In this document: piece after piece, positions 1 to 32,245 of the stretch
How positions within the stretch are numbered: the first letter of the stretch is position 1
Layout: each line of letters opens with the position of its first letter
Assembly (NCBI GenBank): GCA_947458835.1
Contig: CANHBC010000021.1
Coordinates: forward strand, 1-32,245
From: Betaproteobacteria bacterium
GTDB lineage: Bacteria > Pseudomonadota > Gammaproteobacteria > Burkholderiales > CAIKXV01
Direction: 5' to 3'
DNA: 32,245 bases
Position numbers and translations under genes: made by a program
The notes under the pieces: model-generated
Told to the model about the DNA's origin: nothing
What the model saw: the letters and a program-made list of their open reading frames with translations, nothing else
Database searches by the model: none

Positions 1-27
1 CGATACACGCACCTCGCAACCGCCCAA

Positions 28-4329: not shown

Positions 4330-5231
4330 CCACCACGCCGAAGCAGTCCGGGCGCATCGCGATCGTCGGCCGGCCGAACGTGGGCAAGTCGACGCTGCTC
4401 AACCGACTGATCGGAACCCGCCTTGCCATCGTCTCGAAGCGGCCGCAGACGACCCGGTCCAATCTGCTCGGCATCCTGACCCGCGGCGACCAGCAGTTCG
4501 GCTTCGTCGACACGCCGGGCCTTCAGGACAACCGCAGCGGCCATCGCTCCCGCACCTACAACCGGGAAGCGATCCAGGCGCTCGATGGAGTCGACGCGGT
4601 GGCCTGGGTGGTCGAGGCCGACCGGTTCGGCCCCGCCGACCAGGCGGTGGCGAGGGCCTTGCCGCCCGGGCTGCCGGTGGTGCTGGTGATCAACAAGATC
4701 GACCAGATGCGCGACAAGCGCATGCTGCTGCCGTTCATCGATCGCGTGCGTCGCGAGCGTGAGTTCTCGGCGATGGTGCCGGTCAGCGCCGAACACGACG
4801 CGTCCTTCGATCCGCTGCTCGACGCGCTGGCGGTGCACCTGCCAGAGCAGGATGCCCTCTACGACCCGGATGCACTGACCGATCGTGGCGAGCGCTACTT
4901 CGCCGGGGAGATCCTCCGCGAGAAACTGTTCCGGTTCCTGGGTGCCGAGCTCCCCTACGACTGCGACATCGAAATCGACACCTTCGAAGAGTTGCCCAGG
5001 CTGCGCCGCATCTACGCGACGATCACCGTCGCGCGCCCCGGCCAGAAGGCGATCGTGATCGGCGAACGCGGCGCACAGCTCAAGGCGATCGCCACCGCCG
5101 CGCGGCATGACATGGAGGCGCTGTTCGGCTGCAAGGTCTTCATGGAACTCTGGGTAAAGGTGCAACGCGCGCGCGCGCGGCCGGCCGGTGGCCCCGACGT
5201 CGCGCTGCCGGGCGAGCCCGGGCAGGACTGA
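4326..5231 (+). CDS. era: GTPase Era, 30S assembly factor
   Basis: Era binds the 3' end of 16S rRNA and helps finish the small ribosomal subunit. The 301-residue product has G1 GRPNVGKS (15-22), G3 DTPG (62-65), G4 NKID (123-126) and a C-terminal KH domain with the GERGAQLKAI loop (247-256). The ATG at 4326 overlaps the rnc stop by 4 nt and has GGAG 8 nt upstream. The last 20 residues are a Pro/Gly/Ala-rich tail beyond the KH domain. The recO start follows after one base, so the three genes are almost certainly cotranscribed. Confidence 0.98.
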   Translation: MTTTPKQSGRIAIVGRPNVGKSTLLNRLIGTRLAIVSKRPQTTRSNLLGILTRGDQQFGFVDTPGLQDNRSGHRSRTYNREAIQALDGVDAVAWVVEADRFGPADQAVARALPPGLPVVLVINKIDQMRDKRMLLPFIDRVRREREFSAMVPVSAEHDASFDPLLDALAVHLPEQDALYDPDALTDRGERYFAGEILREKLFRFLGAELPYDCDIEIDTFEELPRLRRIYATITVARPGQKAIVIGERGAQLKAIATAARHDMEALFGCKVFMELWVKVQRARARPAGGPDVALPGEPGQD

Positions 5232-21973: not shown

Positions 21974-22729
21974 TCATTCCATGTACAGGCCACCATTGAC
22001 GTGCAGCGTGCTGCCGGTGACGTAGGCCGCGCCCGGCGAGACCAGAAACAGCACGGCCGCGGCGATGTCGGCGGCCTCGCCCAGGCGACCGAGCGGCACC
22101 TGCCCGAGCAGCGCGCTCTTCTGCTCAGGCTTGAGCGAGCGCGTCATGTCGGTGTCGATGAAGCCGGGGGCCACGCAGTTGACGGTGATGTTCCGGCTAC
22201 CGACCTCGCGCGCGAGGGCGCGCGTGAAGCCGAGCATCCCCGCCTTCGACGCCGCATAGTTCGCCTGGCCGGGATTGCCCATCGAACCGACCACGGAGCC
22301 GATGTTCACGATCCGTCCCCGGCGTGCCTTCATCATCGGGCGCAGGACCGCGCGTGACAGGCGCCACACCGATTTCAGGTTGGTGTCCACCACGGAATCC
22401 CACTCGTCCTCGCTCATGCGCATCAGCAGGTTGTCCCGCGTGATGCCAGCGTTGTTCACCAGTATCGATACGCCACCTTCGGCGGCTGCGATCGACTCGA
22501 GCAGCGCATCGACCGCAGCCCCGTCGTTCACGTCCAGACGTACGCCCCGCCCCGGCAGACCGGCCGCGGCGAACGCGGCCCCGATCGCATCGGCGCCAGC
22601 TTCGCTCGTCGCCGTGCCCACGACCCTGGCGCCAGCCTCGGCCAGGGCCATCGCGATCGCCTGGCCGATGCCACGCGTAGCGCCAGTGACCAGCGCGACC
22701 TCGGAATTCAGCAGCTCTGTCGTGGTCAT
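21974..22729 (-). CDS. fabG: 3-oxoacyl-ACP reductase
   Basis: FabG reduces 3-oxoacyl-ACP with NADPH. The 251-residue short-chain dehydrogenase has the cofactor motif TGATRGIGQA (15-24), NNAG (92-95), and the catalytic Ser145, Tyr158 and Lys162 (NYAASKAG). Length and motifs are standard. Its ATG overlaps the fabD stop by 4 nt, so the two are translationally coupled. Confidence 0.98.
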   Translation of the reverse strand: MTTTELLNSEVALVTGATRGIGQAIAMALAEAGARVVGTATSEAGADAIGAAFAAAGLPGRGVRLDVNDGAAVDALLESIAAAEGGVSILVNNAGITRDNLLMRMSEDEWDSVVDTNLKSVWRLSRAVLRPMMKARRGRIVNIGSVVGSMGNPGQANYAASKAGMLGFTRALAREVGSRNITVNCVAPGFIDTDMTRSLKPEQKSALLGQVPLGRLGEAADIAAAVLFLVSPGAAYVTGSTLHVNGGLYME

Positions 22730-23673
22730 GCGCACACCGCCTTCAGTGCCTCGTCCAGCGAAGCCGGGTCGACGATCGCGAAGCCCTGCAGGCTGCCATC
22801 GATGCGTCGGGTCAGCCCGTTCAGCACCTTGCCCGGACCGCATTCGATGACTGTGCCTGCACCCATCGCGGCGATCGCCCGCACCGTCTCTACCCAGCGC
22901 ACCGGCGAGCGAGCCTGGCGCGCCAGCGCGTCCCGGATGGCTGCCGGGTCGGACACCACCGCCACGTCGACGTTGTTGACCACCGGGATCGCCGGGGCGG
23001 ACAGCGTGACCTCGCGCAGGAAGCCGGCCAGTCGCTCGGCCGCAGGGGCCAGCAGCGACGAATGGAACGGCGCGCTCACCGGCAGCATCAGGGCACGCTT
23101 CGCCCCCGCCGCCTTTGCGCGCTCGGCCGCACGCTCGACCGCGCTACGGTGGCCGGCGATCACGACCTGACTGGGCGCATTGAAGTTGACCGGCTCGACC
23201 ACTTCGCCCTGCGCCGCTTCGGCACAGGCGGCGCGGACCGCATCATCGTCGAGGCCCAGGATGGCTGCCATCGCGCCCGTGCCCATCGGTACGGCTTCCT
23301 GCATCGCCTGCGCGCGAAAGCGCACCGTGCGCACCGCGTCTGCCAGTGTCAGCGCACCGGCGGCCACCAGTGCCGAATATTCACCGAGGCTGTGCCCCGC
23401 GACCACTGCCGGCGCGGGACCACCGCAGGCGAGCCATTCCCGCCAGACAGCAACGCCAGCGGTGAGCATGACCGGCTGGGTGTTCACCGTCGCATTGAGC
23501 GCGGTGTCAGGTCCCGTCTCGACCAGCGTCCAGAGGTCTTCGCCGAGCGCGGCCGAAGCTTCGTCGAACGTGGCACGTACGCCGGGACATTCGGCGAAGG
23601 CACGCATCATGCCGACGGACTGTGAACCCTGGCCCGGGAACACGATCGAAAAGGGAATCTTGGCGGTAGTCAT
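22726..23673 (-). CDS. fabD: Malonyl-CoA:ACP transacylase
   Basis: FabD moves malonate from CoA to ACP, supplying every condensation step. The 315-residue product has the FPGQGSQ motif (12-18), the nucleophile in GHSLGEYS (Ser95) and the catalytic histidine in SAPFHSSLL (near 204). It lies 49 nt after fabH and overlaps fabG by 4 nt. The ribosome-binding site before its ATG is weak. Confidence 0.98.
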   Translation of the reverse strand: MTTAKIPFSIVFPGQGSQSVGMMRAFAECPGVRATFDEASAALGEDLWTLVETGPDTALNATVNTQPVMLTAGVAVWREWLACGGPAPAVVAGHSLGEYSALVAAGALTLADAVRTVRFRAQAMQEAVPMGTGAMAAILGLDDDAVRAACAEAAQGEVVEPVNFNAPSQVVIAGHRSAVERAAERAKAAGAKRALMLPVSAPFHSSLLAPAAERLAGFLREVTLSAPAIPVVNNVDVAVVSDPAAIRDALARQARSPVRWVETVRAIAAMGAGTVIECGPGKVLNGLTRRIDGSLQGFAIVDPASLDEALKAVCA

Positions 23674-23722
23674 TCAGGTCGAAAGGTGGGTGGATCGGAA
23701 GGGACGGCGTCGTGGCTCCGGT

Positions 23723-24709
23723 TCACCAGCGCAGCAGCACCGAGCCCCAGGTGAAGCCGCCTCCGACACCTTCGAGCAGCACAAGCTGCCCGGGCCTGAT
23801 CCGGCCGTCGCGAACGGCGGTGTCGAGCGCCAGCGGTATGGACGCCGCCGAGGTGTTCGCATGGCGGTCGACCGTGACCACCACGCGTTCCATCGGCAAG
23901 CCCAGCTTGCGGGCGGTGGACTCGATGATCCGGATGTTCGCCTGGTGAGGCACCAGCCAGTCGATGTCCGCAGGCGCGAGGCCGTTTGCATCGAGCGCCT
24001 CGTGGGCGGCCTCGGCCAGCACCCGAACTGCGAAGCGGAACACAGCGTTACCGTCCATGTGCACGAATGGTGCGCCCTCTACCCGGCCGCTGTCGATGCG
24101 GGCAGGCACGCCGAGGATGCCGCTGAAGCTGCCGTCCGCGTGCAGGTGCGAGGACAGGATCCCCGGGCCGTCGGTGGCGCTCAGCACCACCGCGCCGGCG
24201 CCGTCGCCGAACAGGACGCAGGTGGAGCGGTCGTTCCAGTCGAGGATGCGCGAATACACCTCGGCGCCGACCACGAGCGCATGGCGGCACTGCCCTGCGC
24301 GCACCGCGAGATCGGCCGATGACAGGGCATACACGAACCCGCTGCACACGGCCTGGAGGTCATAGGCCGGGCAGCCTGCGATGCCGAGCTTCTGCTGGAG
24401 GATGCAAGCGGTGCTCGGGAACACCACATCAGGCGTGGTCGTCGCGACGATCACGAGTCCGATGTCCGCTGGCTGCAGCCCCGCAGCCTCGATAGCCCGG
24501 CGGGCAGCCTCAAGCGCGAGGTCGCTGGCGAGCTGGCCCTCGGCCGCGAAATGCCGCTGGCGGATGCCCGTGCGCGTGGATATCCACTCGTCGGAGGTGT
24601 CGACGCGCTGGGCGAGTTCGGCGTTGGTGACGCATCGTTCGGGCAGGTAGCTCCCGGTGCCGCTGATCCGCGAACGGACCTGTGCATTCGACACGCCCGG
24701 ACCGTTCAC
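23723..24709 (-). CDS. fabH: Beta-ketoacyl-ACP synthase III
   Basis: FabH starts fatty acid synthesis by condensing acetyl-CoA with malonyl-ACP. The 328-residue product has the catalytic triad: Cys122 in [13 protein letters not shown], histidine in VPHQANIRI and asparagine in [12 protein letters not shown] chose the GTG at 24709, which overlaps the plsX stop (GTGA); a GTG at 24694 would give a length closer to other FabH proteins, and neither has a strong ribosome-binding site. Confidence 0.97.
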
Positions 24710-25725
24710 GCCGCGCCCCGCTGCAACTGGTTCACCCGTTCGCTGATGCGGCCGGCGAGTCCCATGCGGACTTCCTCCACGGCGCGCCCGATCGCGAACC
24801 CGAAGCTGAAAGCGTCGGCCGAGCCATGGCTCTTGACCACGACGCCCTGGAGGCCGAGCAGGCTCGCGCCGTTGTAGCGGCGATGGTCCACCGTGCGCTT
24901 GAATGCCTTCATCACCGGCAGCGCGCACAGCCCTGCCAGCCGGGTCATCCACGTGCGCGTGACCTCGCGGCGCAGCACGACGCCGAGCATCTGGGCAAGC
25001 CCTTCCGAAGTCTTCAGCGCGACGTTGCCGACGAAACCGTCGCAGACGATCACGTCAACAGTGCCCTTGTAGATGTCGTCACCCTCGACGTTGCCGTAAA
25101 AGTTCACGCCGCTCAGCCGCAGCAGTTCCGCTGCCTGCTTCACCGTGTCGTTGCCCTTGATGTCCTCGACGCCGATGTTCAGCAACCCGACGCTCGGTGC
25201 ATCGACGTGGTCCAGCGCTCCGACGAGACTCGCACCCATGATCCCGAACTGCAGCAGTTGCACCGGCGTGCAGTCAACATTGGCGCCCAGGTCGAGCATG
25301 TAGGTACGCCCGCGCATCGAGGGCAGTACGCCGCAGATCGCCGGCCGCTCGATGCCTGGCAGGGTCTTCAGCACGAAGCGGGAAGTGGCCATCAGTGCGC
25401 CGGTGTTGCCAGCGCTCACGCAGGCGTCGGCCTCACCGGCCTTGACCAGGTTGATCGCTACGCGCATCGAAGACTTCTTCTTGCTGCGCAGCGCATTGGC
25501 GGGCGGTTCGTCCATCGCGACCACCTCGGGCGCGTGCAGCACGCGCAGCCGATCGCTTTCCGTGCGTCCGGCCGCGGCCAGCGCCGCGCCGATCGTGTCC
25601 GACAGACCCACCAGCACGACCGAAAGGTCGGGATCTGCGTCAACGGCGGCGATCGCCGCGGGCACCGTGATGACCGGCCCGTGGTCGCCGCCCATGCAGT
25701 CGATCGCGACGACTACCCGCGACAT
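24706..25725 (-). CDS. plsX: Phosphate acyltransferase PlsX
   Basis: PlsX makes acyl-phosphate from acyl-ACP, feeding the PlsY step of phospholipid synthesis. The 339-residue product has the start [12 protein letters not shown], the [25 protein letters not shown] region and the [13 protein letters not shown] signature. The ATG at 25725 has GAGAGGCGGG upstream; a GTG at 25752 would add nine residues. It follows rpmF by 110 nt and overlaps fabH by 4 nt. Confidence 0.97.
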
Positions 25726-25835
25726 GTCAGCGCCCGCCTCTCGAGATGCCACTTGAAGCCCAGCCGAAGCCCCTGGATCGACCCGCGTTCAATGGGCCTG
25801 CCTGCCCGAAGCACGAGGCAAACGGAGGACGCCGC

Positions 25836-26015
25836 TCAGTCTTTCTTGCCAGCGGTGACCTTCTTGCCGCGGTAGTAACCCGACGGGCTGATGTGGTGGC
25901 GCAGGTGCACTTCACCGGTCGTCGGTTCGACGCCGAGCGGTGCTGCGGTGAGGAAGTCGTGGGCGCGGCGCATGTTGCGGCGGGACGGCGATTTCTTGTT
26001 CTGCTGGACTGCCAT
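25836..26015 (-). CDS. rpmF: 50S ribosomal protein L32
   Basis: L32 is a small basic protein of the large ribosomal subunit. The 59-residue product begins [19 protein letters not shown] and has [14 protein letters not shown] near the end, both typical of proteobacterial L32; this form lacks zinc-binding cysteines. AAGAGG lies about 9 nt before the ATG. It follows yceD by 10 nt, the conserved yceD-rpmF pair. Confidence 0.98.
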
Positions 26016-26025
26016 GATGAACCTC

Positions 26026-26550
26026 TTAGTCTTGATTGCCTTGTTGGGTGCCGCCGCGTCGCGGCGAAAGCCTGCCGAGTGCCGCGAACGGATGTGCTGC
26101 CCTGTCGTCGCCGACCGGCAGGTCGGCGTCACACTGCGTCATGCCGTGTACATCATGGCGCGGCGCGATCGGCCACTGCAGCAGCAATTCGTCTTCAACC
26201 AGTTCCGTGACGTCCAGTTCCTGCGACGCCGGAATCGCATCAACCCCATCCTCGTCTGCCGCATCGAGGTCTGCGTCGTTGCGCGCGAGCCGCACCCTGT
26301 TCCCGATCTGGACCGGCCAGCGCATCGGACCGAGGCAGCGCAGGCAACGAACCATCAGCCAGCCTTCGATCTTCAGTTCGAGCGCCGGTTTATCGTCCCA
26401 CAGGATGCCGCGCACCTCGTAGCTGACTTCACCGGCACGGTCGACGAGACTGTCGTCGAGCCGGGTCAGCCGGTCGCCCTGCAGCGTGCCCTGGCAACGA
26501 TTGCCGGAACGCGCGAAGGCGATGCTGTCAATAACTGGGTTGTGCGACAT
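26026..26550 (-). CDS. yceD: YceD family protein (DUF177), 23S rRNA accumulation factor
   Basis: YceD-family proteins support normal 23S rRNA levels and are usually coded next to rpmF. The 174-residue product has the [11 protein letters not shown] cysteine segment and the acidic region [20 protein letters not shown] that mark the family. The ATG at 26550 ([12 protein letters not shown]) has no ribosome-binding site, and the predicted transcription start is only a few bases upstream. An alternative upstream start at 26583 lies inside the promoter. Confidence 0.9.
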
Positions 26551-26559
26551 AAACGTCGG

Positions 26560-26588
26560 ATAATATTGCGATTTCCAAGCCATGTCAA
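26560..26588 (-). promoter_or_regulatory. Strong sigma70 promoter of the yceD-rpmF-fab operon
   Basis: On the minus strand TTGACA (26588-26583) and TATTAT (26565-26560) are separated by exactly 17 nt: a perfect -35 and a five-of-six -10. Predicted start is near 26553, two to four bases before the yceD ATG. Confidence 0.85.
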
Positions 26589-26591
26589 AGA

Positions 26592-27194
26592 ATGCAGGCC
26601 ATGCCCGCGACCAACCCGTCCCGACTCATCCTTGCCTCGACCTCGCCCTATCGCCGGGCGCTGCTCGATCGGCTGGGCCTGCCGTTCGAGGTCGTGGCAC
26701 CTGCCGTGGACGAGACCCCCGCTCCCGGCGAAGCGCCCTCGGCACTGGCCAGCCGGCTGGCCCGGGCGAAGGCGCTGGCCGTGGCATCGTGCGCGCGCGA
26801 TGCGGTGGTGATCGGCTCAGACCAGGTGGCCGAACTCGACGGCCAGCCGGTGAACAAGCCGGGGACCCATCCGGCTGCGGTTGCCCAGTTGCGCAGCCTG
26901 TCCGGACGCACCGTCCGCTTCCATACGGCACTGTGCGTCCTGAGACTCGAACCGTCACGCGTGGCCGAGGTCGTGGTCGCCACCGATGTCCGTTACCGCG
27001 CGCTCGACGACGCGCAGATCGAGCGCTACCTGCGGCGCGAGACACCGTACGACTGCGCAGGCAGCGCGAAGGTGGAAGGCCTCGGTATCGCGCTCGCCGA
27101 GTCGGTCCGCTGCGAAGATCCGACCGCGCTGGTCGGGCTTCCGCTGATCGCGCTCTCGGGCTGGCTGCCCGAGTTCGGCCTGCACATCCTGTAG
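26592..27194 (+). CDS. maf: Maf family nucleotide pyrophosphatase (YceF type)
   Basis: Maf proteins hydrolyse non-canonical nucleotides; the YceF branch acts on 7-methyl-GTP. The 200-residue product has the start RLILASTSPYRRALLDRLG, VDETPAPGE, GSDQVAEL and GSAKVEGLGI, typical of the YceF branch, which matches its place divergent from yceD. ATGs at 26592 and 26601 are both possible; neither has a clear ribosome-binding site. It converges on sppA with a 13-nt gap. Confidence 0.93.
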   Translation: MQAMPATNPSRLILASTSPYRRALLDRLGLPFEVVAPAVDETPAPGEAPSALASRLARAKALAVASCARDAVVIGSDQVAELDGQPVNKPGTHPAAVAQLRSLSGRTVRFHTALCVLRLEPSRVAEVVVATDVRYRALDDAQIERYLRRETPYDCAGSAKVEGLGIALAESVRCEDPTALVGLPLIALSGWLPEFGLHIL

Positions 27195-27207
27195 CCTCGG
27201 GCGCGGG

Positions 27208-28167
27208 TCAGCGCACCGGCATCGCCCGTGGCGCGGTCGCTGCCCCCCAGAGCGCCTCGGCCGAGGCGGCGCCGAATCGCCTGACCACGCGCTCCGCGAT
27301 GTTCTCGCGCGGTGTGTAGTCGACGATGGTTTCGGCCTTGATCACCTCGCGCGCGACCTGTTCGACGCTGCCCAGCGCATCGGCCAGTCCGAGCTCGATG
27401 CTTCGCTCCCCGGTCCAGACCAGACCGCTGAAGATCTGCGGGTCGGGCTTGAGGCGGTCGCCCCGGCCGCGCTTCACCACGTCGATGAACTGCGCATGGA
27501 TATCGGACAGCATCTGCTGGGCATGCGCACGCTGCTTCGGATCCAGCGGCGAGAACGGATCGAGGAAACCCTTGTTGTCGCCCGCGGTCAGCAGGCGGCG
27601 TTCGACGCCGAGCTTGTCCAGCACCCGGGAGAACCCGAAGCCGTCCATCAGCACGCCGATCGACCCGACGAGGCTCGCACGGTTCACGAAGATCTGGTCG
27701 GCCGCGACGGCGATGTAATAACCGCCCGAGGCGCAGACATCCTCCACCACCGCATACAGGGGAATATTCGGATACTGAGCCCGCAGCCGGCGGATCTCGT
27801 CGTTGACCTGCCCCGCCTGCACCGGACTGCCGCCCGGGCTGTTGATCCGCAGCACCACGCCCTGGGTGTTGTGATCCTTGAACGCGGCCTGCAGGCCGGC
27901 GGTGATCTGCTCGGCCGACGCTGGACTGTCGTTGGCGATCACACCGTTGACCTGCACCAGCGCCGTGTGCTTGCCCGGCGAGGCCATCTCGCGGGCGTCG
28001 AACCAGCCCGCCGCAATGAACAGCAGCAGGAAGAGGTAGAGGAAGGTCAGCGACTTGAAGAAGATGCCCCAGTAGCGGCTGCGCCGCTGCTCCTGCAGGG
28101 TCGAAAGCGCCAGGCGTTCCAGCACCTGGCGCTCCCAGTTGCCGTGCTTGTCATCGGATGGGTTCAT
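27208..28167 (-). CDS. sppA: S49 family signal peptide peptidase (SppA-like)
   Basis: This inner-membrane serine protease likely degrades cleaved signal peptides or misfolded membrane proteins. The 319-residue product has one membrane helix (about 36-55), NSPGGSPVQAG (109-119), the catalytic serine in CASGGYYIA (Ser147) and the catalytic lysine in AGDNKG (Lys199). It is the short single-domain form, about half the length of E. coli SppA. The ATG has AAGAGGAA 7 nt upstream. It follows a HAD phosphatase by 34 nt. Confidence 0.94.
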   Translation of the reverse strand: MNPSDDKHGNWERQVLERLALSTLQEQRRSRYWGIFFKSLTFLYLFLLLFIAAGWFDAREMASPGKHTALVQVNGVIANDSPASAEQITAGLQAAFKDHNTQGVVLRINSPGGSPVQAGQVNDEIRRLRAQYPNIPLYAVVEDVCASGGYYIAVAADQIFVNRASLVGSIGVLMDGFGFSRVLDKLGVERRLLTAGDNKGFLDPFSPLDPKQRAHAQQMLSDIHAQFIDVVKRGRGDRLKPDPQIFSGLVWTGERSIELGLADALGSVEQVAREVIKAETIVDYTPRENIAERVVRRFGAASAEALWGAATAPRAMPVR

Positions 28168-28201
28168 TCAGTGTTCCTCTTGGATCCCGGTCGTGCCCGG
28201 T

Positions 28202-28858
28202 TCAGGCGTGCTGCCTGAGCCAGCGGTGCAGATCGTCGAATCGGTGGATGCAGGCGAGCGGCGATGCGGCGGCCAGTTGCTCCCCCGGATGGGCGCCATA
28301 GGTCACCGCCAGGCCGGCGACACCCGCGGCACGCGCCATGTCGAGGTCGTGCGTGGTATCACCGACCATCACGCTGCGCGTGGCACCGATCCCGAGTTCC
28401 TCGAACAATTCGTGCAGCATCAGCGGATCGGGCTTGGAGGCGGTCTCGTCCGCACAGCGGGTCGCGTCGAAGCAGTCCTCGACACCGAGGTTGCGCATCG
28501 CCCGGTCGAGCCCGCGCCGCGTCTTGCCGGTGGCGACCGCAAGGCGGAATCCGGCCGCGCGAAGGTCGTGCAGCGCCGCCTTGGCGCCGTCGAACAGCGG
28601 GATCTGCGCATCGCCGGCGAAATAGTGCGTGCGGTAGCGGTCCGCCAGCCTGCGCTGGTCCGGCACTGGCAGCCCCGGCACGAGGTGGGCCAATGCATCG
28701 TCCAGTCCCAGGCCGATCACGTAGCGCGCCCGCTCCTCGCTCGGCACCGGCGCTCCGATGTCTGCGCACGCCTGCTGGATGCAGCGCGCAATCAGGCCGG
28801 CCGAGTCGGCGAGCGTGCCGTCCCAGTCGAAGACGATGAGGTCAAACCGGTTGGGCAT
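28202..28858 (-). CDS. HAD-family phosphatase (Gph-like)
   Basis: The 218-residue product has the HAD motifs in order: FDWDGTLADS (Asp11, Asp13), VATGK with the conserved threonine, the lysine in SKPDP, and GDTTHD. A helical cap between motifs 1 and 2 places it in the HAD-IA group with phosphoglycolate and related phosphatases; the true substrate cannot be told. Its start overlaps the end of rluC by 17 nt, so the two are coupled. Confidence 0.9.
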   Translation of the reverse strand: MPNRFDLIVFDWDGTLADSAGLIARCIQQACADIGAPVPSEERARYVIGLGLDDALAHLVPGLPVPDQRRLADRYRTHYFAGDAQIPLFDGAKAALHDLRAAGFRLAVATGKTRRGLDRAMRNLGVEDCFDATRCADETASKPDPLMLHELFEELGIGATRSVMVGDTTHDLDMARAAGVAGLAVTYGAHPGEQLAAASPLACIHRFDDLHRWLRQHA

Positions 28859-29864
28859 CGGGGGCTTTCGGGGTGCGGAGCAACTTCTCCTCGGCGGCGC
28901 GGGCGTCGAGTTGCGAGATGAAATGGATGAAGTCGGGGGGCAGCGGCGCTTCGATCGACATCGTCTCCCCGGTGCCGGGGTGCCGGAAGCGCAGGCTGAA
29001 TGCGTGCAGCATCAGGCGGCGGATGCCGAGCTTCTTCAAGGGGCGATCGCGCTCGGCATCGCCGTACTTGTCGTCGCCGAGGATCGGATGCGACACATGC
29101 GAGAGGTGTACACGGATCTGGTGGGTGCGACCGGTGAACAGATGCGCGTCCAGCAGGGTGAAGGCTTTCCAGGTTGCCAGCGGGACAAATTCTGTCTTCG
29201 CGCTGACGGACCGGGCGGTGGAACCCGCCGTCGGTACCCGCATCCGCTTCTCGGCCACGCCCTCGAGCGTCTCCTCCAGCGGCGCCTCGATGACCCGTCG
29301 CCCCTTGCGCCAGGTGCCGTGCGCCAGGGCCCGGTAGTGTTTGGTGACCCGCCCCTCGCGCAGGTCATCGTGCAGCGCGGTAAGCACGCTGCGCTTCTTC
29401 GCCAGCAGGAGGAGCCCGGAGGTGTCACGGTCTATCCGGTGCACCAGTTCAAGGAATCTCGCGGTCGGGCGCTCTGCACGCAACTGCTCGATGACCCCGC
29501 GCGACACGCCGCTGCCGGCATGGACCGCCCAACCGGAGGGCTTGTCCAGCACGAGCAGCCAATCGTCCTCGTGAATCACATGCTGCGCCAGAACCGGCGG
29601 CGCAGCGCCTGCGCGCGGCGTGCTGCCCGGCAGGGGGGCGCCGAGCCGCACCGGCGGCACCCGTACCGCGTCATCCAGGGCAAGTCGGCGCTCGGGCTGT
29701 GCACGCTGGCCGTTGACCCGCACTTCGCCGCGACGCAGCAACCGATAGACGTGGCTCTTCGGAACCCCCTTCAGGATCTTCAGAAGGAAGTTGTCAAGTC
29801 GCTGGTTGACGCTTGATTCGTCAACGATTTCCATGCGAACGACCGGTTTGCCGGAGGCGTCCAT
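28842..29864 (-). CDS. rluC: 23S rRNA pseudouridine synthase RluC
   Basis: RluC makes pseudouridines at 955, 2504 and 2580 of 23S rRNA in E. coli. The 340-residue product has an N-terminal S4 RNA-binding domain (about 20-70) and the RluA-family catalytic motif HRIDRDTSG (142-150, catalytic Asp145), followed by GRTHQIRVH. Its position beside rne, divergently, is the same as in E. coli and supports RluC over RluD. GGAG lies 9 nt before the ATG. The first ten or so residues are a variable tail. Confidence 0.95.
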   Translation of the reverse strand: MDASGKPVVRMEIVDESSVNQRLDNFLLKILKGVPKSHVYRLLRRGEVRVNGQRAQPERRLALDDAVRVPPVRLGAPLPGSTPRAGAAPPVLAQHVIHEDDWLLVLDKPSGWAVHAGSGVSRGVIEQLRAERPTARFLELVHRIDRDTSGLLLLAKKRSVLTALHDDLREGRVTKHYRALAHGTWRKGRRVIEAPLEETLEGVAEKRMRVPTAGSTARSVSAKTEFVPLATWKAFTLLDAHLFTGRTHQIRVHLSHVSHPILGDDKYGDAERDRPLKKLGIRRLMLHAFSLRFRHPGTGETMSIEAPLPPDFIHFISQLDARAAEEKLLRTPKAPDAQPV

Positions 29865-29928
29865 ATTGCTATACTCCGGGTCGGCGACAGTGTGCGGACG
29901 GTCCTCGCAGACGGGAGGCCTGCTGCGC

Positions 29929-29950
29929 GATCGAGTTTTTGCGCTCGATC
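29929..29950 (+). repeat. Inverted repeat in the rluC-rne gap
   Basis: GATCGAG (29929-29935) and CTCGATC (29944-29950) form a perfect 7-bp stem with an 8-nt loop containing five T. The right arm, CTCGATCAAG, recurs exactly at 30050-30059. Function unknown. Confidence 0.5.
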
Positions 29951-30290
29951 AAGGTGCTGGACAACTCTCCGGCCGAAGTGGTACACCCGAACCGGCTTTC
30001 CCTGATTTCCACAGGTTACTTTCGCTCACCTGAACAAGCAGCGATCTTACTCGATCAAGTGCGTAACGCCGCAGGCGCGCATTGCAGCGGTCTTTTCCGC
30101 AGCGCGCCGTCGCGGCATGCAGACGCAGAAGCCTGGCAGGTCCGTTCGATGTCTTTCCTTTGCTTCCGGTCATTCCAGCAGGCGCCCACGCGTGTCGACC
30201 CCCGGTCGGCCGTCGGTGTCCGGACGGCTGTCAGAAGCTTGTCCCCGACAGAAAAGGTGCGAGACCCCTCACCACTGACCTGACGCATCC

Positions 30291-30309
30291 GCAACCGGTC
30301 CCCGGTTGC
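30291..30309 (+). repeat. Perfect hairpin in the rne leader
   Basis: GCAACCGG (30291-30298) and CCGGTTGC (30302-30309) form an 8-bp stem with a 3-nt loop, 53 nt before the rne start. No T-run follows. It is the strongest single stem in the leader and a candidate for RNase E-mediated control. Confidence 0.6.
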
Positions 30310-30362
30310 CCTGCGCGCCCGGCTTCGCGCGACCCCGTGCTTGATCGCGGGAGTCTGAATCA

Positions 30363-32245
30363 ATGAAACGCATGTTGTTCAATGCGACGCAGGCGGAAGA
30401 ACTCCGCGTCGCAATCGTCGATGGCCAGAAGCTGATCGACCTCGATATCGAAACCGCAGGAAAAGAACAGCGCAAGAGCAACATCTACAAGGGAACCATC
30501 ACCCGCGTCGAACCCAGCCTCGAGGCCGCCTTCATCGATTACGGCGCCGATCGGCACGGTTTCCTGCCCTTCAAGGAGGTCGCCCGCTCCAACTTCCGCA
30601 GCGGGGCCGAGACGGACCCGGCACGCGCGACCATCAAGGATGCGCTGCGCGAAGGCCAGGAAGTCATCGTCCAGATCGACAAGGACGAACGCGGCACCAA
30701 GGGCGCCGCCCTCACCACCTACATCAGCCTGGCCGGCCGCTACATCGTGCTGATGCCGAACAACCCGCGTGGCGGCGGAGTGTCGCGGCGGATCGAGGGT
30801 GAAGACCGCAACGAGTTGCGCGACCTGGTCGCCCAGCTAGACGTGCCCGCCGGGATGAGCGTGATCGCGCGCACGGCCGGCATCGGTCGCACGCTCGAGG
30901 AACTGCAGTGGGACCTCGCCTACCTGCTGCGCCTCTGGGAAGCGATCGAGTCGGCGGCCAAGCGCGAGTCGGCGCCGTCGCTGATCTATCTCGAGAGCAG
31001 CCTCGTCATCCGGGCGATCCGTGACTACTTCAGTCAGGACATCGGCGAGATCCTGATCGACACGCCGGACATCTACGACCAGGCCCGTTCGTTCATGGCC
31101 GCGGTGATGCCCGGCAACCTCAGCCTGATCAAGCACTACCGGGACGACGTCCCGTTGTTCTCGCGTTTCCAGATCGAACACCAGATCGAGAGCGCGTACT
31201 CGCGCCAGGTCACCCTGCCCTCCGGCGGCGCGATCGTCATCGACCACACCGAGGCCCTGGTCTCGGTGGACGTCAACTCGGCCCGCGCGACGCGCGGCGG
31301 CGACATCGAGACCACCGCGTTCAACACGAACTGCGAGGCGGCCGACGAGATCGCCCGGCAACTTCGCCTGCGCGACCTCGGTGGCCTGATCGTCATCGAC
31401 TTCATCGACATGGAGAACGCGCGCAACCAGCGCGAGGTGGAGACCCGGCTGCGCGACGCCCTGCACGTGGACCGCGCGCGCGTCCAGATGGGGAAGATCT
31501 CCCGATTCGGCCTGATGGAACTGTCGCGCCAGCGGCTGCGTCCGTCGCTCGGCGAATCGGCGCACATTCCGTGTCCGCGCTGCCACGGGACCGGCTTCGT
31601 GCGCGGCATCGAATCGACGGCACTGCACATCCTGCGCATCCTGCAGGAAGAGGCGATGAAGGAGAACACCGGCGCGGTGCATGCTCAGGTGCCGGTCGAT
31701 GTCGCGACCTTCCTGCTCAACGAGAAGCGCCAGGACATCCAGAGCATCGAGCTGCGCCAGAAGGTCAACGTGGTGCTGGTGCCCAACCTGCACCTTGAGA
31801 CCCCCAACTACACGGTCACACGGCTGCGCCACGACGAGTTGAACGCCGCCGAGCCGCCCGCGGCGAGCTACCAGCTGGTGGTCGCGCCCGAGGCGCCGGA
31901 GACGCTGCCCGGCATGCCGGCGGAGCGTCCCCAGCGGCCGCAGGCCGCGGTCCAGGGCATCACGCCCGAGGCGCCACCGCCGGCTCCAGTGCATGCACCG
32001 CAAGCGGCTTCGACCCCTGCGCCCATGCCAGCCCCGGCGCCGCGCTCACTGTTCGACAAGATGTTCGGCTGGCTCAGCGGCAAGTCCGCCACCCCGGCGG
32101 CATCGTCGGAGCCTTCTCCCTCGCCGGTCGTGGCACCGTCCCCGGCTGCACGCAGCTCGACCGGTGATGCCGCACGCAGGGCTGGCGGCCGCGATGCCGA
32201 CCGCCGTCGTGGGGGCCGAGGGGATCGTCCGGAGCGCGGTGAACG
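30363..32245 (+). CDS. rne: Ribonuclease E, N-terminal part (cut by window edge)
   Basis: RNase E is the main endonuclease of RNA decay and rRNA/tRNA processing, and scaffolds the degradosome. The visible 627 residues contain the S1 domain (about 35-125, starting [19 protein letters not shown]), catalytic Asp303 (SVDVNS) and Asp346 (VIDFIDM), and the zinc-link CPRCHGTG (Cys404, Cys407). All four residues have the same numbers as in E. coli. After about residue 510 the sequence becomes Pro/Ala-rich, with an amphipathic stretch ([10 protein letters not shown], 562-571) in the place of the E. coli membrane-binding helix, then Arg-rich. The C-terminal scaffold is off the edge. The ATG has GCGGGAG about 9 nt upstream. 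Confidence 0.97.

Follow-up and report, generated by a model that had tools for sequence, protein, structure and literature searches.

Conserved promoter layout predicting a near-leaderless yceD message in a betaproteobacterium and across its class

Genes and signals at the yceD locus

The window, by which we mean the whole stretch of 32,245 nucleotides that was analyzed, carries a gene run on its minus strand that is opened by yceD. It is followed by rpmF, a plsX-like gene and then fab genes, the latter recognized by eye from the ORF translations (Table 1). This is the gene order of the E. coli type. The divergent neighbour maf begins close by; the distance to the yceD ATG is 41 bp from the first maf ATG and 50 bp from the second.

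Table 1. Positions of the genes and sequence signals at the yceD locus of the window.
Feature	Position	Strand	Evidence
yceD (DUF177), ATG at 26550, without Shine-Dalgarno sequence	26026..26550	-	Pfam PF02620, E 2.6e-14
rpmF (L32), second cistron	25836..26015	-	Pfam PF01783; Shine-Dalgarno sequence AAGAGGT overlaps the yceD stop codon
plsX-like gene, same gene run	24706..25752	-	Pfam PF02504; 5' end taken from the longest ORF start
maf, divergent neighbour	26592..27194	+	Pfam PF02545
-35 hexamer TTGACA	26583..26588	-	Sequence; TTGAC(A) recurs in relatives
-10 hexamer TATTAT, 17-nt spacer	26560..26565	-	Sequence
Discriminator and start region CCGACGTTT	26551..26559	-	Positions 1-6 GC-rich, purine at 6, pyrimidines at 7-9

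Over the promoter stretch the minus strand reads TTTGACATGGCTTGGAAATCGCAATATTATCCGACGTTTATG. A preliminary description of this DNA had proposed a promoter of the form TTGACA-17-TATTAT on this strand, and it can indeed be read there; the two hexamers agree with the consensus in 11 of 12 bases. Only nine nucleotides, CCGACGTTT, lie between the -10 hexamer and the ATG of yceD. The promoter signal is located immediately 5' of the start codon and this codon is AUG, both of which are features of a (near-)leaderless mRNA. Positions 22000-32245 contain two promoter-like sites (shuffled sequences gave a mean of 0.7), and this one has the better score. The pattern TTGACN-16..18-TANNNT-5..12-ATG matched once in the 32-kb window versus 0.02 matches expected from shuffles. 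A stricter pattern, TTGACA-16..18-TANNNT-8..10-ATG, resulted in four matches in the 3.76-Mb genome, and its reversed control in one; apart from the yceD site, the matches of the stricter pattern have -10 boxes with only 3/6 consensus bases. When positions 25500-27600 were searched for a structured leader RNA, no Rfam family reached its gathering score. The gene rluC (29864, minus strand) was considered as a second leaderless candidate and rejected, because by eye it looks Shine-Dalgarno-led, with GGAG before its ATG.

The -10 region at 26558-26566 is nearly symmetric, and the plus strand reads GATAAT/TAATAT there. Several relatives from the same order read TGATATAAT, an extended -10 element, on the opposite strand at 26558-26566 (by eye). 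The divergent neighbour may therefore share a bidirectional promoter with yceD.

The preliminary description had also stated that yceD has no ribosome-binding site, which agrees with the calculated pairing energies. In the 20 nt before the yceD ATG of the window the pairing with the anti-Shine-Dalgarno sequence amounts to 0.0 kcal/mol, versus -6.5 kcal/mol for rpmF. The same holds for relatives: over 50 loci the median for yceD is 0.0 kcal/mol, and pairing below -4 kcal/mol occurs at only two of them (L111, -6.1; L129, -4.8). The rpmF gene was found by motif in 44 of the 50 loci and not in the remaining 6; its median is -6.9 kcal/mol, its Shine-Dalgarno pairing is stronger than that of yceD in 44/44 loci, and none of the 44 gave a near-leaderless promoter call at rpmF. 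Furthermore, the first 60 nt of the predicted message appear weakly structured, since shuffling gave an equally good or better fold in 196 of 200 cases.

Conservation of the layout among relatives

We scored a genome as positive if it contains a σ70-like promoter with at least 9 of 12 matching positions and an in-frame ATG 7-11 nt after the -10 hexamer. An alignment of close relatives had been suggested as a check in the preliminary description; in the genus of the window it returned the same layout in 9 of 10 readable genomes, window included. The exception, G001, has ACG at the start position and a likely start further down, and one more genus member (G002) is cut by a contig end. In the order the layout is present in 54 of 98 genomes and in 37 of 49 families, 51 of the 54 with a distance of exactly 9 nt; poorly matching families were over-sampled on purpose, so that 54/98 must not be read as the rate of a random sample. 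In the class outside the order, which was represented by one genome per family, 71 of 87 families are positive; the distance is 9 nt in 54 of them and 10 nt in 11. Dinucleotide-shuffled upstream DNA was positive in only 7 of 1960 cases (order) and 5 of 1740 cases (class).

Within the allowed 7-11 nt, the distance from the -10 hexamer to the ATG is exactly 9 nt in 105 of the 125 positives, and the spacer between the hexamers measures 17 nt in 100, 18 nt in 23 and 16 nt in 2 of them. These 125 genomes had been selected for ATG. Allowing GTG, TTG or CTG added 4 of the 60 remaining genomes, and in none of these does the start codon follow the best promoter of the genome at a distance of 9 nt. In a phylum-wide draw the layout was present in 24 of 27 genomes of the class, here taken together with the order; seven of these 27 genomes were already among those counted above. 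Outside the class it was seen in none of the 20 genomes fetched from 45 with a YceD match. The view of the preliminary description that such a message would be unusual in proteobacteria cannot be kept for yceD: most of the class families sampled here have the layout, E. coli has it, and the leaderless state of E. coli yceD is already in print, in one clause of PMC4378010. What is new is the conservation across the class; in the open-licence literature searched we found no description of a class-wide, distance-fixed conservation at yceD.

The 98 genomes of the order comprise 28 loci, 40 regions mostly chosen as one per family, and 30 of 32 drawn from poorly matching families. The 87 genomes of the class are all of the 89 with a YceD match except G000 and G058. 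The loci L007 (G002) and L010 (G006), in which the contig ends at the gene start, were left out of the counts; another piece of G006 (L031), outside the 98, has the layout by eye. Genomes without a YceD match, which also stand outside the counts, numbered 4/60, 8/300, 26/115 and 46/120 in the four draws.

The layout is missing in 44 of the 98 genomes of the order and in 16 of the 87 of the class. Some families without it have leaders of about 30 nt and little Shine-Dalgarno sequence; in others over 100 nt separate the best promoter from the first ATG. In five genomes of the order (G186, G062, G270, G243 and G104) the first in-frame ATG follows 128-252 nt after the best promoter, and family f31 had no positive genome in the sample. 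G054 was scored negative, since its frame, although opened by an ATG at +10, is broken downstream; its locus (L027) has the usual promoter and ATG with an in-frame stop within the first codons, so that either the gene is broken or the sequence contains an error. Two loci, L014 (G035) and L011 (G001), carry ACG exactly at the position of the start codon; an in-frame ATG follows later, at 12 or 43 nt from the -10 hexamer. These two genomes are possible recent escapes from the near-leaderless state.

The association with yceD was also seen in a search that ignored genes. The pattern TTGACA-17/18-TATNAT-NSSSSGCTTATG was run over the genome contigs and matched at least 117 stretches; the listing gave 80 loci. 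Among these 80 listed matches 77 open yceD: 74 frames contain the C-x-R-C motif as in YceD, and three more (L225, L231 and L264) are YceD by their N-termini. In L225 and L231 rpmF follows, while L264 is cut short. Of the other listed matches two are cut by a contig end and one belongs to another gene. The latter (L239, positions 4401-4442), on a contig labelled Lentisphaerae, is the one readable listed match that opens a different gene.

Start of transcription and start of translation

Purines at positions 5-10 after the -10 hexamer are restricted in the window to G 26554 and the A of the ATG. We infer that transcription starts either at G 26554, with the 4-nt leader GUUU, or at A 26550, without any leader. 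The preliminary description had placed the start at about 26553. This position is a T, which makes 26554 a little more likely; the near-leaderless layout as such, with a predicted leader of 0-4 nt, is strongly supported by the comparison.

In genomes with the 9-nt distance, positions 7-9 are free of purines in 49 of 51 cases in the order and in 44 of 54 in the class, and position 6 is a purine in 32 of 51 and 46 of 54, respectively. Because positions 7-9 are mostly purine-free, the start would be either at position 6 (4-nt leader) or at position 10 (the A of the ATG). The trinucleotide pyrimidine-T-T at positions 7-9 is kept in 16 of 20 genomes of the order that have a promoter of at least 9.5 and no ATG at +10, with a background of 3.6%; for the class outside the order the signal is weak (3/7). 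Since this motif persists without an ATG at +10, it seems to have a role in transcription as such, and this speaks for position 6 as the start. Its retention where the start codon has moved perhaps reflects a constraint of its own on the start of transcription.

Positions 1-6 after the -10 hexamer have a GC fraction of 0.91 in the order and 0.81 in the class; the corresponding values for the 100 nt upstream of the promoter are 0.57 and 0.52. GC-rich discriminators are a feature of growth-controlled σ70 promoters, of the type that drives genes for rRNA and ribosomal proteins. The yceD promoter resembles these, and stringently controlled promoters, in its GC-rich positions 1-6. The composition of the discriminator hence suggests growth control.

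In E. coli K-12 the region reads TTGACT-17-TAATAT-GCGCGCCCT-ATG. The yceD-rpmF operon of E. coli has the same gene order and the same distance of 9 nt from the -10 hexamer to the ATG as the window. Its promoter differs in that it is weaker (TTGACT, TAATAT) and has no purine at positions 6-9, so that the A of the ATG or the G at position 5 would be favoured as the start there. A further difference is the gap to yceF, which measures 198 bp in E. coli and contains SraB.

The position of the start codon was judged from the coding sequence. Over codons 2-8 of yceD the first and second codon positions are less variable than the third in 14 of 14 codon columns. Relatives share residues directly after the ATG: Ser2, followed by Val-Ile-Asp in the order and by Leu-Pro in the rest of the class. 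In 43 of 54 genomes of the order the checked region, which ends five codons inside the conserved part, contains no further ATG, GTG or TTG. In the class such alternatives are absent from the checked region in only 33 of 71 genomes, so that the argument is weaker there than in the order. Together, these patterns indicate that the ATG at 26550 is very probably the true start of yceD.

Possible origin and role of the layout

In our judgement yceD is probably an old near-leaderless first cistron that separates strong transcription from weak synthesis of YceD. A σ70-type promoter with a GC-rich discriminator would start transcription 0-4 nt before the AUG of yceD, with G 26554 as the most likely position. 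Because the message has no Shine-Dalgarno sequence and a weakly structured 5' end, ribosomes would have to recognize the near-terminal AUG directly, and they would do so with low efficiency. The rpmF cistron would be translated from its strong Shine-Dalgarno sequence over the yceD stop codon. In this way one strong and probably growth-controlled promoter could yield much L32 and only little YceD, which is a factor for the accumulation of 23S rRNA. The distribution among families suggests that the layout is old: the common ancestor of gamma- and betaproteobacteria probably had it already, and several families would since have lengthened or lost it. The promoter sequence, its geometry and conservation, the lack of a Shine-Dalgarno sequence at yceD and the contrast with rpmF are observations made here. 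The lower translation of yceD would apply by analogy with E. coli, where a ribosome profiling study from 2014 describes yceD as "without 5'-noncoding leader" and reports a lower translation efficiency for it than for rpmF, with which it shares the operon (PMC4378010). We infer the exact start site, the growth control, the age and the purpose of the layout.

An alternative that we regard as unlikely takes the near-leaderless yceD message as a sensor: 70S or stress-altered ribosomes, or a high IF2:IF3 ratio, would favour its translation, so that its output follows the ribosome pool. The recurrence of the layout across the class and the nearly invariable AUG would agree with this. So would the phenotype of an E. 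coli yceD knockout, which has less 23S rRNA; the growth of the same mutant at 25 and 37 degrees C, however, was like that of the wild type (PMC5049393, which also reports co-transcription of yceD and rpmF in E. coli). Furthermore, low translation by itself explains the layout. The preliminary description had suggested such a link to altered ribosomes; the observations agree better with weak translation of YceD, without a Shine-Dalgarno sequence, in front of a strongly Shine-Dalgarno-led rpmF. The sensor has a more far-reaching form, which is improbable: a feedback device since the gamma-/betaproteobacterial ancestor, in which YceD is made only via a 5'-terminal AUG and at a rate that follows the ribosome pool (70S, 50S supply, IF2:IF3). 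If this were true, the synthesis of YceD would report the status of the large subunit, and that of the Shine-Dalgarno-led L32 from the same message would not.

It is rather doubtful that the layout is a by-product, in which a short gap to the neighbour or a constraint on the promoter start region sets the distance and there is no selection on translation. The window promoter is close to the divergent gene maf, and local compaction may contribute there; the persistence of pyrimidine-T-T without an ATG at +10 also points to a motif that partly serves transcription. E. coli, however, has the same 9 nt in spite of its much wider gap to yceF. The neighbour seems to differ between families, with maf-like or biotin-carboxylase-like ends (by eye), yet the 9 nt stay, and the Shine-Dalgarno sequence is absent in most yceD loci tested.

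We consider it very unlikely that the main transcript comes with a leader from further upstream and that the site at 26588-26560 is a minor one. Some E. coli data would fit: SraB is annotated upstream of yceD, and the dRNA-seq study of Romero et al. (2014) lists, in the part available, five mRNAs with leaders shorter than 10 nt, with yceD not among them (PMC4681348). This absence is either in conflict with PMC4378010 or the result of conservative calling. A transcript from upstream would, however, still have no Shine-Dalgarno sequence before yceD in the window, and the yceD promoter recurs across the class. In E. coli K-12 (L130, positions 1215-1262) a stem-loop and T run, located where SraB has its annotated 3' end, abut the yceD -35 hexamer and might insulate yceD from upstream transcription, albeit with a fold only mildly better than that of shuffled sequences (z -1.3).

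A misplaced start codon, with translation from the in-frame ATG at 26583 or from inside the gene, is hardly credible: 38 of 71 class genomes do have another ATG, GTG or TTG between the called ATG and the end of the checked region and 3 of 71 have one between the -10 hexamer and the called ATG, but the ATG at 26583 lies within the promoter, upstream of any start from it, and is missing in the nine other readable genus members, and the residues common to relatives begin at 26550, with no alternative start in most genomes of the order.

Three enterobacterial start-site maps, for Salmonella, E. coli/Klebsiella and Shigella, do not name yceD in their main texts. Start-site papers on B. cenocepacia, C. 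metallidurans and N. gonorrhoeae count leaderless mRNAs; in the accessible parts of these and of an Alteromonas paper there is no mention of rpmF, L32, plsX or DUF177 (not all four in each). The Shigella map contains 172 chromosomal start sites without a leader. The layout at yceD resembles the leaderless or near-leaderless mRNAs of rhlB and pgpA in E. coli (PMC4681348) and of acuR in Rhodobacter (cited in PMC3293720) in its predicted leader of less than 10 nt and its lack of a Shine-Dalgarno sequence. The leaderless acuR is described as well transcribed and far less translated (cited in PMC3293720). In the parts of these sources available rhlB, pgpA and acuR are described as individual cases, whereas the yceD layout concerns one gene across a class.

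Leaderless messages are reported as few in the available parts of enterobacterial maps (five in E. coli, 33 in Salmonella). Here one housekeeping gene, which heads a ribosome/fatty-acid gene run, has a layout with a near-zero predicted leader in most families sampled. The signature from the -10 hexamer to the ATG could be used by gene finders to place the start of yceD. With the preferred reading of a poorly translated first cistron and the sensor both in mind, yceD may serve as a natural case, accessible in E. coli, for the purpose of leaderless translation, be it the setting of protein ratios within an operon or the sensing of ribosome state.
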